From Mixophyes australis (taxonomy: Eukaryota; Chordata; Amphibia; Anura; Limnodynastidae): a DNA stretch of 64,000 nt. The translations under genes and the position numbers were made by a program. The notes below the pieces were generated by a model that ran no database searches, had not been told where the DNA came from, and saw only the letters and a program-made list of their open reading frames with translations. The stretch is taken from the NCBI GenBank assembly GCA_036250195.1, contig JAVHZZ010000001.1, positions 381,531,907 through 381,595,906 of the forward strand, written 5' to 3'. Below are positions 682 to 52,775 of the stretch, piece by piece; position 1 is the first letter of the stretch; every line of letters starts with the position of its first letter.

Positions 682-3600
682 CAGGGGCGGACTGGCCATT
701 ACATTTACCGGGAAGATCCCCGGGAGGCCGGTGGCCTAACGAGGCCGCTCGGAGGCCGCCTATTATTTATTTTTATTTTTTTTGGGTCATCCGGCGCGGT
801 CAGAAGGAGGGCAACAATCCAAAAATTAGTGGTCAGTGGTAAGCACCAGGCAGCCTCACGCATCGCGAGGCTGCCTGGTGCTACAGCACTGTGCACCAAT
901 CAGACAGGAAGCAGGAAGTATTCACTTCCTGTCTGTCTGATCAGGTCTGCTGAGCAACGCTGCAGAGCGCGCCGGCCCCAATACTTAAGGTAAGTGAAAG
1001 GGGGCTACATCTGGGAAAACTATATGTGAGGAGGCTATATCTGTGAAAACTATATGTGAGGGGGCTATATCTGGGAAAACTATATGTAAGGAGGCTATAT
1101 ATGTGAAAACTATATGTGAGGGGGCTATATCTGGGAAAACTATATGTAAGGAGGCTATATATGTAAAAACTATATGTGAGGGGGCTATATGTGGGAAAAC
1201 TATATGTGAGGAGGTTTTATCTGTGAAAACTATATGTGAGGAGGCTATATCTGTGAAAACTATATGTGAGGAGGCTATATCTGTGAAAACTATATGTGAG
1301 GAGGCTATATCTGTGAAAACTATATGTGAAGGGGCTATATCTGTGAAAACTATATGTGAGGGGGCTATATCTGTGAAAACTATATGTGAGGAGGCTATAT
1401 CTGTGAAAACTATATGTGTGGGGGCTATATCTGTGAAAACTATATGTAAGGAGGCTATATCTGTGAAAACTATATGTGAGGAGGCTATATCTGTGAAAAC
1501 TATATGTGAGGAGGCTATATCTGTGAAAACTATATGTGAGGAGGCTATATCTGTGAAAACTATATGTGAGGAGGCTATATCTGTGAAAACTATATGTGAG
1601 GGGGCTATATCTGTGAAAACTATATGTGAGGAGGCTATATCTGTGAAAACTATATGTGAGGAGGCTATATCTGTGAAAACTATATGTGAGGAGGCTATAT
1701 CTGTGAAAACTATATGTGAGGAGGCTATATCTGTGAAAACTATATGTGAGGGGGCTATATCTGTGAAAACTATATGTGAGGAGGCTATATCTGTGAAAAC
1801 TATATGTGAGGAGGCTATATCTGTGAAAACTATATGTAAAGAGGCAATATCTGGGAAAACTATATGTGAGGGGGCTATATCTGTGAAAACTATATGTGAG
1901 GGGGCTATATCTGTGAAAACTATATGTGAGGGGGCTATATCTCTGAAAACTATATGTAAGGAGGCTATATCTGTGAAAACTATATGTGAGGGGGCTATAT
2001 CTGTGAAAACTATATGTGAGGGGGCTATATCTGTGAAAACTATATGTGAGGAGGCTATATCTGTGAAAACTATATGTGAGGAGGCTATATCTGTGAAAAC
2101 TATATGTGAGGAGGCTATATCTGGGAAAACTATATGTGAGGGGGCTATATCTGTGAAAACTATATGTGAGGGGGCTATATCTGCGAAAACTATATGTGAG
2201 GAGGCTATATCTGTGAAAAATATATGTAAGGAGGCTATATCTGTGAAAACTATATGTGAGGGGGCTATATCTGTGAAAACTATATCTGAGGAGGCTATAT
2301 CTGTGAAAACTATATGTGAGGAGGCTATATCTGTGAAAACTATATGTGAGGAGGCTATATCTGTGAAAACTATATGTGAGGAGGCTATATCTGGGAAAAC
2401 TATATGTGAGGGGGCTATATCTGTGAAAACTATATGTGAGGGCTATATCTGTGAAAACTATATGTGAGGGGGCTATATCTGTGAAAACTATATGTGAGGA
2501 GGCTATATCTGTGAAAACTATATGTGAGGAGGCTATATCTGTGAAAACTATATGTGAGGAGGCTATATCTGTGAAAACTATATGTGAGGGGGCTATATCT
2601 GTGAAAACTATATGTGAGGAGGCTATATCTGTGAAAACTATATGTGAGGAGGCTATATCTGTGAAAACTATATGTGAGGGGGCTATATCTGTGAAAACTA
2701 TATGTAAGGAGGCTATATCTGTGAAAACTATATGTGAGGGGGCTATATCTGTGAAAACTATATGTGAGGAGGCTATATCTGTGAAAACTATATGTGAGGA
2801 GGCTATATCTGTGAAAACTATATGTGAGGGGGCTATATCTGTGAAAACTATATGTGAGGAGGCTATATCTGTGAAAACTATATGTGAGGAGGCTATATCT
2901 GTGAAAACTATATGTGAGGAGGCTATATCTGTGAAAACTATATGTGAGGGGGCTATATCTGTGAAAACTATATGTGAGGAGGCTATATCTGTGAAAACTA
3001 TATGTGAGGGGGCTATATCTGTGAAAACTATATGTGAGGAGGCTATATCTGGGAAAACTATATGTGAGGGGGCTATATCTGTGAAAACTATATGTGAGGG
3101 CTATATCTGTGAAAACTATATGTGAGGGGGCTATATCTGTGAAAACTATATGTAAGGAGGCTATATCTGTGAAAACTATATGTGAGGGGGCTATATCTGT
3201 GAAAACTATATGTAAGGAGGCTATATCTGTGAAAACTATATGTGAGGGGGCTATATCTGTGAAAACTATATGTGAGGGGACTATATCTGTGAAAACTATA
3301 TGTGAGGGGGCTATATCTGTGAAAACTATATGTAAGGAGGCTATATCTGTGAAAACTATGAGGGGGCTATATCTGTGAAAACTATATGTTAGGAGGCTAT
3401 ATCTGTGAAAACTATATGTAAGGAGGCTATATCTGTGAAAACTATATGTGAGGGGGCTATATCTGTGAAAACTATATGTGAGGAGGCTATATCTGTGAAA
3501 ACTATATGTGAGGAGGCTATATCTGTGCAAACTATATGTGAGGGGGCTATATCTGTGAAAACTATATGTGAGGAGGCTATATCTGTGAAAACTATATGTG

Positions 3601-5224
3601 AGGAGGCTATATCTGTGAAAACTATATGTGAGGAGGCTATATCTGGGAAAACTATATGTGAGGGGGCTATATCTGTGAAAACTATATGTGAGGGCTATAT
3701 CTGTGAAAACTATATGTGAGGGGGCTATATCTGTGAAAACTATATGTGAGGAGGCTATATCTGTGAAAACTATATGTGAGGAGGCTATATCTGTGAAAAC
3801 TATATGTGAGGGGGCTATATCTGTGAAAACTATATGTGAGGAGGCTATATCTGTGAAAACTATATGTGAGGAGGCTATATCTGTGAAAACTATATGTGAG
3901 GGGGCTACATCTGTGAAAACTATATGTGAGGAGGCTATATCTGTGAAAACTATATGTGAGGGGGCTATATCTGTGAAAACTATATGTGAGGAGGCTATAT
4001 CTGTGAAAACTATATGTGAGGAGGCTATATCTGTGAAAACTATATGTGAAGGGGCTATATCTGTGAAAACTATATGTGAGGGGGCTATATCTGTGAAAAC
4101 TATATGTGAGGGGGCTATATCTGTGAAAACTATATGTGAGGGGGCTATATCTGTGAAAACTATATGTGAGGGGGCTATATCTGTGAAAACTATATGTGAG
4201 GGGGCTATATCTGTGAAAACTATATGTGAGGAGGCTATATCTGTGAAAACTATATGTGAGGAGGCTATATCTGTGAAAACTATATGTGAGGGGGCTACAT
4301 CTGTGAAAACTATATGTGAGGAGGCTATATCTGTGAAAACTATATGTGAGGAGGCTATATCTGTGAAAACTATATGTGAGGAGGCTATATCTGTGAAAAC
4401 TATATGTGAGGAGGCTATATCTGTGAAAACTATATGTGAGGAGGCTATATCTGTGAAAACTATATGTGAGGAGGCTATATCTGTGAAAACTATATGTGAG
4501 GAGGCTATATCTGGGAAAACTATATGTGAGGGGGCTATATCTGTGAAAACTATATGTGAGGGGGCTATATCTGTGAAAACTATATGTGAGGGGGCTATAT
4601 CTGTGAAAACTATATGTAAGGAGGCTATATCTGTGAAAACTATATGTGAGGAGGCTATATCTGTGAAAACTATATGTGAGGGGGCTATATCTGTGAAAAC
4701 TATATGTGAGGGGGCTATATCTGTGAAAACTATATGTGAGGGGGCTATATCTGTGAAAACTATATGTGAGGGGGCTATATCTGTGAAAACTATATGTGAG
4801 GAGGCTATATCTGTGAAAACTATATGTGAGGAGGCTATATCTGTGAAAACTATATGTGAGGGGGCTACATCTGTGAAAACTATATGTGAGGAGGCTATAT
4901 CTGGGAAAACTTTATACAAGGAGCTATATCTGGGAAAACTATATGTAAGGGGGCTGCATCTGGGAAAACTATGTGAGGGGGCTACATCTAGAAAAACTAT
5001 ATGTGAGGGGGCTACAGCTTTTTTCCTGCATTGCTTTAGAAATTACCCACTGTGTTTTAAGTCATCATATCTAGGTTTTCCTAAATTTTTCCCCAACCAA
5101 ATTCCAAGTTCTAAATCCCGCCTACTTTTGTGTTGGCCCCACCTACATTTAAATTGGCCATGCCCACATGAAGCCACTTCAATAATTTTTTCCAGGGCCA
5201 CTTTAAATTCCCAATCCGCCCCTG
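682..5224 (+). mobile_element. Non-autonomous hAT transposon swollen by a minisatellite
   Basis: The element starts with CAGGGGCGGACTGG and ends with CCAATCCGCCCCTG, an inverted pair. Perfect 8-bp duplications, GTTTTAAT, lie at 674-681 and 5225-5232. CAGGG-type TIRs plus an 8-bp TSD are diagnostic of hAT. The left arm (682-1002) holds a GC-rich section, an inverted repeat around 847-881 (CAGGCAGCCTC paired with GAGGCTGCCTG) and the motif AGGTAAGTGA at 989-998. The right arm (about 5020-5224) is unique sequence. The ~4 kb between is one tandem array. No transposase is present, so it was moved in trans. The same left-arm core occurs inverted in the element at 36930-38699. Confidence 0.93.
1003..5020 (+). 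repeat. 30-bp minisatellite, about 134 units
   Basis: Units of 30 bp run head to tail without spacers. One half-unit reads CTATATCTGTGAAAA and the other is CTATATGTGAG followed by GAGG or GGGG. Main variants are GAGG/GGGG, GTGAG/GTAAG and CTGTG/CTGGG. Flanking units at the two ends are the most diverged (ctacatctggg types near 1003-1020 and 4905-5015), as expected when the interior is homogenised. Because 30 is divisible by 3 and the unit lacks stops in several frames, long open frames exist on both strands. They are by-products of the repeat, not genes. Rare 28-bp units at about 2431, 3089 and 3683 mark higher-order duplication. Confidence 0.97.
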
Positions 5225-5232
5225 GTTTTAAT

Positions 5233-30419: not shown

Positions 30420-30905
30420 CTGTTTTTCTGTCTGGTTATGCATTCGAACACACCTACACTGATTTTAATGAAACCAATTTGAGGTGGTCCAGTTGGATCC
30501 TGGCCAGGTATTAGGGGGGCTTGGGTCCTGGTCGGACCTCCCGTTGGTCTACGCTGGCCAGAACTTTGACCCGGAGAGCCTGTTCTGAGCCTGCATTTGG
30601 ACACCCCCAAACTGATTGAAATGAAACCAATGCGAGGTGGTCTACAGTAGATAGATGCTGGCCAGGTTTTAGGGGGCTTAGGGTCCCATTCAACCTCCCA
30701 TGGTTGTATGCTGGGCAGAAAGTTTGACCTGTGCAACCTGTTTTGAGCCTGCATTCGGACACACTTGCACGGAATGGGATGAAACCAAAGAAAGGTGGTC
30801 CAGTTGGAATCTGGCCAGGTTTTACAGGGTTTAGGGTCCTGGTCGGACCTCCCATTGGTGTACACTGGGCAGAACTTTAACCTGGGTAGCATGTTCTGGG
30901 CCTTC
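30420..30905 (-). repeat. About three tandem units of ~155 bp
   Basis: Landmarks recur: 'gcattcggacac', 'aatgaaaccaa', 'aggtggtccagttgga', 'ctggccaggttttag', 'ggtcctggtcggacctccc'. The 'tgttctgagc' landmark sits at 30581, 30739 and 30892, giving spacings of 158 and 153 bp, with a partial first unit from about 30420. An open minus-strand frame of 213 codons crosses all units (30287-30928), but the unequal, non-triplet spacing puts successive units in different frames. That argues against a protein. Confidence 0.85.
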
Positions 30906-36575: not shown

Positions 36576-36929
36576 TTTGTTTTCCATGGAGTAGCAATAC
36601 AATGAGCATGATAATTCATCCTTTGAATGGGCATCATCTTGGCTGGAGTCATAGCAACTGAACAGTTGAGGATACACCACATACATATCTTAACATGTGG
36701 CAATACTACTATCACTTACATATAAGAATATATGAAATATTCCAGAGAACCAATTGGAGGGACTCAACCAGCTAAACCAGCCATCTTGTCCATGATGTCG
36801 GCTAGCAAAAATTATTTGTCAGTTCCTCAATTTCTTGAATATGTTATATATCTTTATTTTAGTCATTGGATCATCAGTATTGTTGGTTTAAATTGAACAG
36901 CACTGTAAACACAGACTGTGTGGTCAGAG

Positions 36930-38699
36930 CAGGGCCTGATTAAGGGTTCTGGCCGCCCTAGGCTAATACGGCCGCAGCGCCCCCCCCCTCCTCCGAATAT
37001 ATAGGTGTATAGGAACACTCCTGAATATGAATGTTCAGGTGTATTCTCCAGCATTCAAATTTAGACAGATTGTGCCATTGTCTCTTACCTGTTCTTGCTC
37101 TTCTCTCTTGCAACTTTGTTATCCTCTTGCTGGCTTCTGGAAAGTTGGCGTCCTGTTTTGAAAATGCAAAAATGTATTATAATGCAAACCCTGAATGATT
37201 AGGCCCTTTAGTTAAAACAAAACACTCCATTATGGCCAGCTAAAAGTACCCCATTGGGCAGGCATATATAAGCAATATCTGAATATTTGTTGTCAATCAA
37301 ATACAAACCTCTACCAGCCCCATCTCACTAATATTTAGTATTCTAGTGATTGCTGAGACCACCCATGTGACCACCACACAATCATGAGATTCTGCCCCCC
37401 AAAGCTGCTCTATTTTTTAAATACCCCCTGCAGCCATTTTCCTTAACCACAACCCCCCCACAGCCATTTTCCTTAACCCCTGCTGCAGCCATTTTATTTA
37501 CCTCCCACCCTGCATCCATCCCCCTTGCAGCTATTTTCCTTACCTCCACTCTGTAGCTATCCCCCCCCCGTCACATCAAAACTCCCCCAGTCACATATAT
37601 CAGCCCCCTTCCTCTGCCCTCCTTCATACATATCAACCTCTCTCCCTCCCTATAGATTTTCATGGCAGCCTCCCCCCTCCCACCCTATAGATTTGTATGA
37701 CAGTCCCCCTCTCCCTCCCTATACATATGCATGACAGTCCCCCCTCTCCCTCCCTATATATATGCAGGGTAGTCCCCCCCCTCCCTATAGATATGCAGGG
37801 TAGTTCCCCCCCTCTCTATAGATATGCAGTGTAGTTCCCCCCCTCCCTATAGATATGCAGGGTAGTTCCCCCCTCCCTATAGATATGCAGGGTAGTTCCC
37901 CCCCCTTCCTATAGATATGCAGGGCAGTTCCCCCTCCCTATAGATATGCAGGGCAGTTCTCCCCCTCCCTATAGATATGCAGGGCAGTTCCCCCCCCTCC
38001 CTATAGATATGCAGGGCAGTTCCCCCCCTCCCTATAGATATGCAGGGCAGTTCCCCCCCCTCCCTATAGATATGCAGGGTAGTTCCCCCCCTCCCTATAG
38101 ATATGCAGGGCAGTTCCCCCCTCCCTATAGATATGCAGGGCAGTTCCCCCCCTCCCTATAGATATGCAGGGCAGTTCCCAACCCTCCTTTATAGATATGC
38201 AGGGCAGTTCCCCCCCCCCTCCCTATAGATATGCAGGGCAGTTCCCCTCCCCCCTCCCTATAGATATGCAGGGCAGTTCCCCCCCCTCCCTATAGATATG
38301 CAGGGCAGTTCCCCCCTTCCCTATAGATATGCAGGGCAGTTCCCCCCCCCTATAGATATGCAGGGCAGTTCCCCCTTCACTTACCTGTAGTTGTGCCAGC
38401 ATCGCTCCTCTCCTCAGATCAGCAGATAGGAAGTCAAGACGTCCTGCTTCCTGTCTGCTGCACAGCAACAGGCAGCCTGGCGATTGGCTGTGTGTTGCTA
38501 ACCACTGACCACCAATGCTTTTGATCGTCGAGCCCTCCACCCCCCGCGGCGACCCCCCCTCCCCCACCCCAAAAAAAAATTTAATGAAGAAAAAAGAAAA
38601 CAAATAAAAAAAAAAAAAAAAATACCCGCAGCGCCGCGCCCCCCGGGACCCAGCGCCCCAGGCTGCAGCTTGGTCAGCCTAGTGGTTGATCAGGCCCTG
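36930..38699 (-). mobile_element. Non-autonomous hAT with C-rich minisatellite
   Basis: Ends CAGGGCCTGATTAAGG and TTGATCAGGCCCTG, with perfect 8-bp duplications GGTCAGAG (36922-36929, 38700-38707). Read on the minus strand, its first arm shares a ~170-bp core with the 682-5224 element: 'ggtggtcagtggt-agca', 'caggctgcct', 'agacaggaagcagga', then 'aggtaagtgaa-ggggg'. The tandem array begins immediately after this motif. It interrupts the ERV env gene, so it is younger than the ERV. Confidence 0.93.
37640..38385 (-). repeat. About 24 units of a 29-32-bp minisatellite
   Basis: Each unit contains CTATAGATATGCAGGGCAGTT followed by a run of 5-11 C residues and CTCC (motif length varies mainly in the C-run). 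The first units (37640-37760) are diverged ('atagattttcatggcagcc'), and the later ones are nearly identical. It shows no sequence similarity to the 30-bp repeat at 1003-5020. Confidence 0.93.
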
Positions 38700-39561
38700 G
38701 GTCAGAGTGAGCAAATACCCTCCTCTCTGGGCTGTAATGTAATCCAGCACCATTTTATGTTGTGCTCTTCACCAAAATATCTGCATGTATTGTCATAAAT
38801 GGCAATAATCTTGTCCTGTAGATCAGCCAGATCACTGACTTGTCTTTCATTATATGCATCATCCTGCAGTTTCAAAAGTAAGAACATTTAATAAGGTGTA
38901 ACCTGTATATGAGTATGAAACAAAGGCTTATATGTTTTGTCAGCGAATTGCATATGTCATTTATACAAAAAGACTATAGTTTCTTGATTGGCATATGCTC
39001 TTTTCACATCACCATGTGGAATAACCATGATATATGGGAGTGTAAGAGCTAATGTACAATTGCTGAATGCACCAAAAGAGAGCCATCTGAATGCTATTTT
39101 TCCACAAACATATTACACAACTGGTGGTAATGTACATGGTGTGATCTTAAACAAATGTGAATAATATTCCAGGTGTAAATGTATTAATCTGTGACTTTAG
39201 AAAATCGCCTATATTTTGTGACTTTGTCAGGGGAGGGGGGATTCAATAAAAAATAATTGTAGTAGCCAAGCATCATTACAGGTAAACGATGGGATTCTCC
39301 TGCATAGTCAGTGCTTTTTTGAATTCCCATACTATAGTTCAATTCTTTCAATTCCTCAAACAGTAAAGATACAGCTATCCTAGGGTAAGCAGTAGCACTG
39401 GAATGTGCTCTAGTACATATCCAACACTTATTATTCCCTAAAGCTTTTCCTACCTCTTGGTGTAGGTATATCAATGAATTATTGTTTCTCATGTTCTTGC
39501 CCTGTGTATCTTGGCACCAATGTACACAACATGTTTCAAAATGAGGACCACGGTACAAAAT

Positions 39562-51479: not shown

Positions 51480-52775
51480 TTAGAAGAAGTCTCTGCTCTG
51501 CTGTCTTGAGAGCAGAGTGGCGAGCAGAGTGGGGGCTGAGGGGGAGTGAGTGCCTTTGGGGGGGAAGTGACTTTGCTTTGCTGGGTCTACCTCACCTCTG
51601 GAACCAATCGTAACCACTATCACGCTCAAGGGTCTGGAAGGACCCATATGGTCTGCTTGTGTTGATGCTATCCTCCAAGAGGCGTGGAGTCTAACAGAGA
51701 GGGAGGTATTCACCCGGGACCCCCGCAAGGGAGCTTGGATATTGCGGCTTCCTAACCACAGGTCGCGGTTCTCAAGGAGGGTCACAAGCGAAACCGAGAG
51801 GGGAACCAAGTCACAGGTGTAAGATGGTTGCTGATAGGAGTAATAATGAGGAGTATTTTTTGCAGGTGGATGAGGTACAGAGGTCCTGTGGAGCTAGGAG
51901 GCTTCTAGGGTCAGGATCAAGAGGAAGTGCGATGGTATGTAGATAGATAGCGAGCAGAAGTACCGATCTGCAGGAGATGGAGACTGGTAGAAACACCCTG
52001 CAGCAGGATGATGCTGTAACACCGGAGAGCCTAGAACAGATATTGGAGGTAACGATCTGCAGCAGTATAGTGCTGACAAACTGGAGAGCTGGGAGCAGTT
52101 ATAGGTGGTAACACTCTGCAGCCAGATGACGCTGTAACACCGGAGAGCTGGATGCAGGAAAGGGTGGTAATACTCTGCAGCAGGAAAATGCTGTAACACT
52201 GAAGGGCTGAGAACAGGTATTGGTGGTAACATTCTGCAGCAGGATACCTCTGACACACTGGAGAGCTGGGAGCAGGTGTAGGTGGTAACAGTCTACAGCC
52301 AAATGACGCTGTAACACAGGAGAGCTGGAAGCAGATAAAAGTGGTAATACTGTGCAGCAGGATAATGCTGTAACACTTGAGAGCTGGAGGCAGATAAAGG
52401 TGGTAATACTCAGCAGTAGGATAGCGCTGAAAAAACAGATAGGTGAAAACAGGTATTGGTGATAGTACTTAGCAGCAGCAGGAAAACAGGAGCCAGACTG
52501 GAACACGTCTAGACAGGAGATGAGACCTGAAGATCTTGCACTCAGGAAAGGAGACTGGTGCTTTAAATAAACAGAGTTGACAGGCAATCAATTAATCAGG
52601 TAAATGGAAGGAGTTTTGACAAGGGCTGGTTTTGCACATACAAAGTTTAGACAGGCAAGATGGCGTCCACCAGTGCAAGCCATGGGCACCTGCTGAGAGA
52701 GGAGAGTGGAAGCCAGAGGTAGGTAGGCGCACCAGACCCAAACCAGGTGGCCAGTGGGTCCGGTGCCTGACAGCC
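51480..52775 (-). mobile_element. Probable LTR with internal tandem repeat
   Basis: The right edge, 'gggtccggtgcctgaca', read on the minus strand as TGTCAGGCACCGGACCC, resembles the start of frog Ty3/Gypsy-type LTRs. The block is GC-richer than its surroundings, with an 'accaggtggccagtgggtcc' end and a 'ctttaaataaac' segment at 52560. The left boundary and a TSD could not be found, so class and extent are tentative. Confidence 0.45.
51995..52480 (-). repeat. About eight units of ~60 bp
   Basis: Units of about 60 bp carry CTCTGCAGCAGGATGATGCTG, TAACAC-GGAGAGCTGG and AGCAGGTAT-GGTGGTAA. 'gagagctgg' recurs at about 52083, 52142, 52261, 52321 and 52379. Several minus-strand open frames over it are produced by the repetition. 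Confidence 0.85.

Follow-up and report, generated by a model that had tools for sequence, protein, structure and literature searches.

A tandem-repeat tract at a putative 5' splice site in a clan of hAT-type elements of the frog Mixophyes australis

Introduction

Tandem arrays carried by transposable elements are established. In the VNTR retrotransposons SVA and LAVA of hominoid primates the array is central and its units, which differ between lineages, are 30-50 bp long, include conserved units at the array ends and change at the DNA level (parts of PMC4432496). Furthermore, the Xenopus MITEs Xstir and miDNA4 are frog DNA-transposon derivatives with tandem arrays; the copy number of the miDNA4 array is variable, and the MITE itself may be the source of the Xstir repeats, whereas for miDNA4 a captured repeat has been proposed (according to portions of PMC9659126 and PMC12628747). 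Also in frogs, the SINE/tRNA-V minisatellite was amplified from part of a dispersed element and differs between species (passages of PMC10794172), and Helitron/Helentron elements with central satellite-like repeats have conserved ends and a variable array in the middle (sections of PMC12628747). In these respects, all of them resemble the elements described here.

The new part of the present work is the anchoring of such arrays at a splice site. In the literature covered (titles, abstract starts and some passages), we found no intron-1 or splice-site-anchored array across a hAT clan. Our starting point was the window, i.e. the whole stretch of 64,000 nucleotides that was analysed, and the genome searched was the window's own (3.13 Gb).

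Results

Two related hAT-type elements in the window

The window contains two elements in opposite orientation, which we delimited and classified from their sequence:

682-5224, plus strand: E1, non-autonomous hAT-type element, with the target duplication GTTTTAAT at 674-681 and 5225-5232
36930-38699, minus strand: E2, non-autonomous hAT-type element, with the target duplication GGTCAGAG at 36922-36929 and 38700-38707

The 8-bp duplications are exact on either side of E1 (GTTTTAAT) and of E2 (GGTCAGAG), as in hAT elements, and both have short terminal inverted repeats starting with CAGGG (CAGGGGCGGA...TCCGCCCCTG and CAGGGCCTGAT...ATCAGGCCCTG). Short terminal inverted repeats with this beginning are a signature of the hAT superfamily. 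The 5' cores of the two elements are 73% identical over 140 bp (BLAST, E=1.5e-15) and lead into a putative 5' splice site, followed by the arrays:

806-989, plus strand: E1 core, putative promoter and noncoding exon 1, ending at the putative exon/intron boundary 989-990 (BLAST match to the E2 core at 806-942; 16-row family alignment)
38385-38545, minus strand: E2 core, putative promoter and exon 1, ending at the putative boundary 38385-38384 (BLAST match at 38417-38538; 16-row family alignment)
843-881, plus strand: 15-bp inverted repeat GCACCAGGCAGCCTC...GAGGCTGCCTGGTGC inside the E1 core; most of the 16 aligned rows have it in recognisable form
987-995, plus strand: E1 putative 5' splice site AAG/GTAAGT, 9/9 to MAG/GTRAGT, conserved in copies and families
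38379-38387, minus strand: E2 putative 5' splice site CAG/GTAAGT, 9/9 to MAG/GTRAGT
999-5014, plus strand: E1 minisatellite, 30 bp x 134.3 (TRF)
37644-38375, minus strand: E2 minisatellite, 31 bp x 23 (TRF)
37484-37643, minus strand: region past the E2 array with degenerate units headed by G-runs and, after them, a 42-bp x 2 repeat; one of the units is similar to the terminal unit of other families (p=0.12 in E2 itself)
5015-5224, plus strand: E1 3' end; at least six older copies have ~660 bp extra before it, including an exon-2-like stretch

Both window arrays lie inside the element boundaries, between the ends and target duplications, as in other TE-borne VNTRs. Each element has one copy of the motif AGGTAAGTGA, at the homologous place, and these are the only two in the 64-kb window; the rest of the window (57.6 kb, both strands) has two sites with a 9/9 match to MAG/GTRAGT. 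An earlier note on this DNA had described two related hAT elements, one of them inverted, with a shared core that ends in AGGTAAGTGA, a splice-donor-like motif, and an array beginning right after it in each element. The exact duplications, the similarity of the cores, the two perfect consensus matches and the TRF calls bear out all of this.

The E1 array contains repeated blocks: the same context surrounds a rare 28-bp unit at 2438, 3096 and 3690 (spacings of 658 and 594 bp), and stretches of up to 267 bp match each other exactly at further offsets. Such duplications fit slippage or unequal exchange. The GC skew of the sense strand is positive in both window arrays and in all five unit types tested. 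The note had attributed the arrays to a structural hotspot made of a G-run and nearby hairpins, but a structural trigger of this kind was not supported, as neither a G-quadruplex nor a hairpin was seen in common among the five unit types: the canonical G-quadruplex motif is present in one of the five only, and the folds computed for the DNA of two units have 0.0 (E1) and -11.0 kcal/mol (E2).

Two other tandem repeats are present in the window, a 59-bp repeat at 51992-52429 with a higher-order period of 177 bp (3 x 59) and several open minus-strand frames, and a 153-bp repeat in three copies at 30439-30903, open on the minus strand.

A search for the hAT dimerisation domain PF05699 gave 26,085 first-look candidates in the genome, of which 150 were scored; the three of these regions examined contained no match to this core or to the element tails. 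The locus L030/L061 was considered as an autonomous element and dropped, since the copy passes into other sequence directly after the donor and is truncated or nested; the ORFs beyond this donor look gag-pol-like by eye, without a family search. L061 is the L030 locus again and was left out of the counts. In a different hAT family, with ORFs of 1009-1024 codons, 100-bp tandem arrays flank the transposase frame (1743-3869 and 7031-7774 in L159; 2440-3860 and 7022-7457 in L160).

The putative 5' splice site and intron 1

The 40 E1-type copies found by BLAST have a perfect donor in 37 cases and keep its GT in 39. As the core-plus-donor patterns used in the genome searches required the motif, an independent search was carried out with the core hairpin alone, which gave 262 matches (control, 0). 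We sampled every fifth of 100 listed matches (n=20); E1-type cores are outside this sample owing to an insertion at that place, and three of its loci (L139, L141 and L143) overlap previously read ones. A perfect donor was found 91-116 nt downstream of the hairpin in 15 of the 20 loci (0.0055 expected per locus), the GT was kept in 17 and an array lay within 60 nt in 16, L149 and L151 having neither donor nor array.

Farther downstream, E2 contains a candidate second exon:

37089-37152, minus strand: candidate exon 2 (64 nt), CAAAACAG/ ... AGAACAG/GTAAGAGA, with a homologue in older E1-type copies

This exon aligned to six older E1-type copies with AG and GTRAGAGA (0/500 shuffles each, one of the six comparisons being narrow, with a score of 47 against a shuffle maximum of 45) and, in an alignment without a shuffle run, to a seventh (L029), in which the GT of the second donor is lost. 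The ~660 bp that older E1-type copies retain and window E1 lacks include a homologous exon with matching signals. The donor is conserved beyond chance, and a downstream acceptor and exon are shared between families, as expected of a GT-AG intron. Judged by these sequences, AGGTAAGTGA is a conserved consensus 5' splice site, presumably used as a donor. In exon 1, the ATG of window E2 is ACG in 6/9 of the E1-type rows shown and in most of the E2-type matches listed.

Arrays at the same place in a wider clan

The core end followed by AGGTAAGTGA has 3,018 exact matches in the genome (reversed control, 0), and a pattern with an added G, which is mostly absent in E2-type copies, has 760 (control, 0). 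The first 100 listed matches of the core-plus-donor pattern comprise many additional families. We chose 54 loci for diversity and read ~330-480 bp after the donor in each of them. TRF called an array in 13/14 and 36/40 of these loci; those lacking a call are L076 (one unit), L100, L103, L104 and L124, among which L103 and L104, kept in the 40, may fall outside the clan. The called array begins 64-112 nt from the motif in L101, L109, L114, L116, L125 and L130. A G-run (of at least 4) starts within 10 nt of the motif in 40/54 loci and within 60 nt in 52/54; for comparison, one of 24 other GGTAAG sites in the window has GGGG within 14 nt. Different families amplify different units at this same spot.

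Three side observations were made in the clan. At least 12 F11-type cores lie in a single orientation, ~26-99 kb apart, at ~299.52-300.0 Mb of C1, which suggests tandem segmental duplication, and three F6-type cores on one strand of C1 (34018607, 34022644 and 34026684), ~4.04 kb apart, represent a local tandem duplication. Moreover, L156 has a 40-bp unit in which CTAT is itself repeated (CTATCTATCTATAG), a small repeat growing within a larger one.

One unit type within each of two families

The E1 core query gave 301 candidates and the E2 core query 178, of which 40 were scored in each case; we examined all 40 scored E1-type copies and 30 of the 40 scored E2-type copies. An array of the E1 unit type was called by TRF in 37/40 E1-type copies, the exceptions being L015 and L064, with only ~1-3 units, and L030, with none, and an E2-type array was present in 30/30 E2-type copies. 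In both families the called arrays begin 1-18 nt from the start of GGTAAGTG. The 30 E2 cores show a mean difference of 0.77 in 160 nt, yet their array length goes from 329 to at least 1492 bp, a spread that describes young copies because these are the best-matching end of the family; array starts are common to groups of them. The uniform unit of each family, the shared starts and the spread of lengths indicate that arrays travel with the element and that their length changes quickly.

Since each of these two families has one unit type, the site does not create a new array per copy. The earlier note had proposed a hotspot that repeatedly generates repeats, and had itself named the same array in all copies as the observation that would contradict it; that is what both families show, and we rejected a de novo hotspot in that form within them. 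Between families the claim fared better, as arrays are found at the same place in most loci (13/14 and 36/40 of the diversity-picked ones, 16/20 in the hairpin sample) with units that differ from family to family. The site seems to be a recurrent place of amplification, acting mostly on an inherited repeat tract.

Relationships between the units

The score of the direct comparison of E1 and E2 units was reached by 819 and 385 of 2000 shuffles. When the older E1 unit was compared with E2, the corresponding figures were 157 and 87 of 1000 with the G-run and 340 and 177 of 1000 without it, and 35-49 of 1000 in another shuffle test. None of these three attempts was significant alone, and direct homology of the two units was dropped. 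Nevertheless, among 24 unit types compared after removal of the leading G-run, 39/276 pairs had p<=0.001 when 0.28 would be expected (the pairs are not independent of each other, and the consensus units were set by hand on the basis of the TRF calls), and the E1 and E2 units fall in one similarity component of 17 types. As their direct comparison is not significant, the link between them is transitive. The view of the two repeats as unrelated holds for that comparison, but not once the intermediate families that join them are considered. Furthermore, L083 has an F8 unit and an E1-like unit within one array. The unit of L107, with no detectable relative among the 24 types, could possibly represent a separate array birth.

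E1 and F3 have a common 3' end (179 identities, 21 mismatches and 2 gap positions) and cores that are 68% identical, but very different units, which indicates that units change faster than that flank. F4 is another case of divergent units, of 36-37 bp and without CTATA. Beyond the array, the intron of the two F4 loci tested aligns to that of F8 (0/300 shuffles for each). F8-type arrays are followed by a single terminal unit, which is similar to one F4 unit (p=0.0035, uncorrected) but was not linked to the second one (p=0.15). E2's own terminal unit did not match that of other families significantly (p=0.12), though its relatives L081 and L084 did better, with 2 and 5 of 300 shuffles for their terminal units. 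A tree was built from 15 cores, leaving out F4b (L097); it is rooted at the midpoint only, and its deep forks are poorly supported. There, F4 is sister to F9 with support 99/97, and the F9 array is of the CTATA type. The switch of the F4 unit looks nested inside the array-bearing clan.

Discussion

The arrays of this clan occupy a fixed position, and a homologous intron continues beyond them in some families. The most probable explanation, in our opinion, is that one ancestral G-run-headed tract at the start of intron 1 was inherited across the hAT clan, with a fast turnover of its units. The point at which arrays start would be the exon 1/intron 1 boundary of a remnant gene, with a transposase gene once located downstream, and the sharp upstream edge of the arrays would be the exon boundary itself. 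The order upstream would be 5' terminal repeat, hairpin-bearing promoter-like core and exon 1, with AGGTAAGTGA functioning as the 5' splice site, and intron 1 would open with degenerate tandem units, mostly of 24-40 bp and usually headed by a G-run and then CTG or CTA. Such a tract would have been present already in the ancestor of most families, and perhaps of the whole clan, and would have been copied with the element at every transposition. Slippage, unequal exchange or repair at the DNA level could then have multiplied one or a few member units in each lineage and removed others, the outcome being different-looking arrays in different families at one fixed place. Transcription-linked R-loops in this process would be compatible with the positive GC skew seen on the sense strand.

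Alternatively, the G-run beside the donor could repeatedly seed unrelated repeats, with one birth per family. The recurrence of arrays at this point in most loci of further families, the constancy of the G-run after the donor, the weak or missing links of L107 and one F4 unit to the other units and the lack of significance of the direct E1-E2 comparison would all agree with this. However, we consider it unlikely, as there is a single unit type within the E1 and E2 families, 17 unit types form one network even after removal of the G-run, the array of L083 holds two unit types, and no G-quadruplex or hairpin is common to the units. A capture by every family of a ready-made minisatellite from elsewhere in the genome, as proposed for the Xenopus miDNA4 MITE (in part of PMC12628747), is very improbable, because units are related between families and those of F4, F6, F7 and F8 sit in an intron with common sequence beyond them.

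A further alternative is functional: G-runs act as splicing enhancers, and the array might be kept for the function of the element, its G-runs working as intronic splicing enhancers near the donor, or the array as an enhancer or a spacer. In agreement with this, arrays are present in most loci examined despite the change of unit, their constant features are the G-run head and the G-rich sense strand, and in gibbon LAVA the repeat domain determines the efficiency of mobilisation (according to passages of PMC4432496). Nevertheless, copies with few units or none exist (L015, L030, L064, L076 and L147) and the unit varies beyond its head, which makes this a doubtful explanation of the arrays. A broader conjecture, to which we give a small although not negligible chance, is that a large hAT clan retains a G-run-headed tract, fixed at the 5' splice site of intron 1, because the tract benefits the element (in splicing, in transcription close to the promoter or in mobilisation), whereas the sequence of the unit can turn over freely; it would be a DNA-transposon counterpart of the SVA VNTR, in which selection maintains the form of the array rather than its letters.

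The 3,018 core-plus-donor matches in one genome constitute a large natural series, with arrays that vary in unit and length at a largely fixed position, in which the birth, switching and loss of minisatellites can be read on a family tree. They raise the question of whether form alone is enough for a mobile element to keep an array. Moreover, minisatellites that appear unrelated and start at one point can be distant relatives, and this matters for any claim of a repeat hotspot.

Helitrons and Helentrons are rolling-circle elements without an 8-bp target duplication, and in both respects they differ from the elements described here, which have one. In the parts covered of the reviews that describe Xstir and miDNA4 (PMC9659126 and PMC12628747), the table has no hAT entry and the text mentions no splice-site position, unlike the present arrays. 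The SINE/tRNA-V minisatellite is described as expanded in subtelomeres only and derived from a retroelement tail (portions of PMC10794172), whereas the arrays of M. australis stand where a putative intron begins and are carried by DNA elements that occur on many contigs. Finally, SVA and LAVA are LINE-1-mobilised retrotransposons with GC-rich units (parts of PMC4432496), whereas here it is hAT-type DNA elements that carry the array, and they carry it at a putative 5' splice site.
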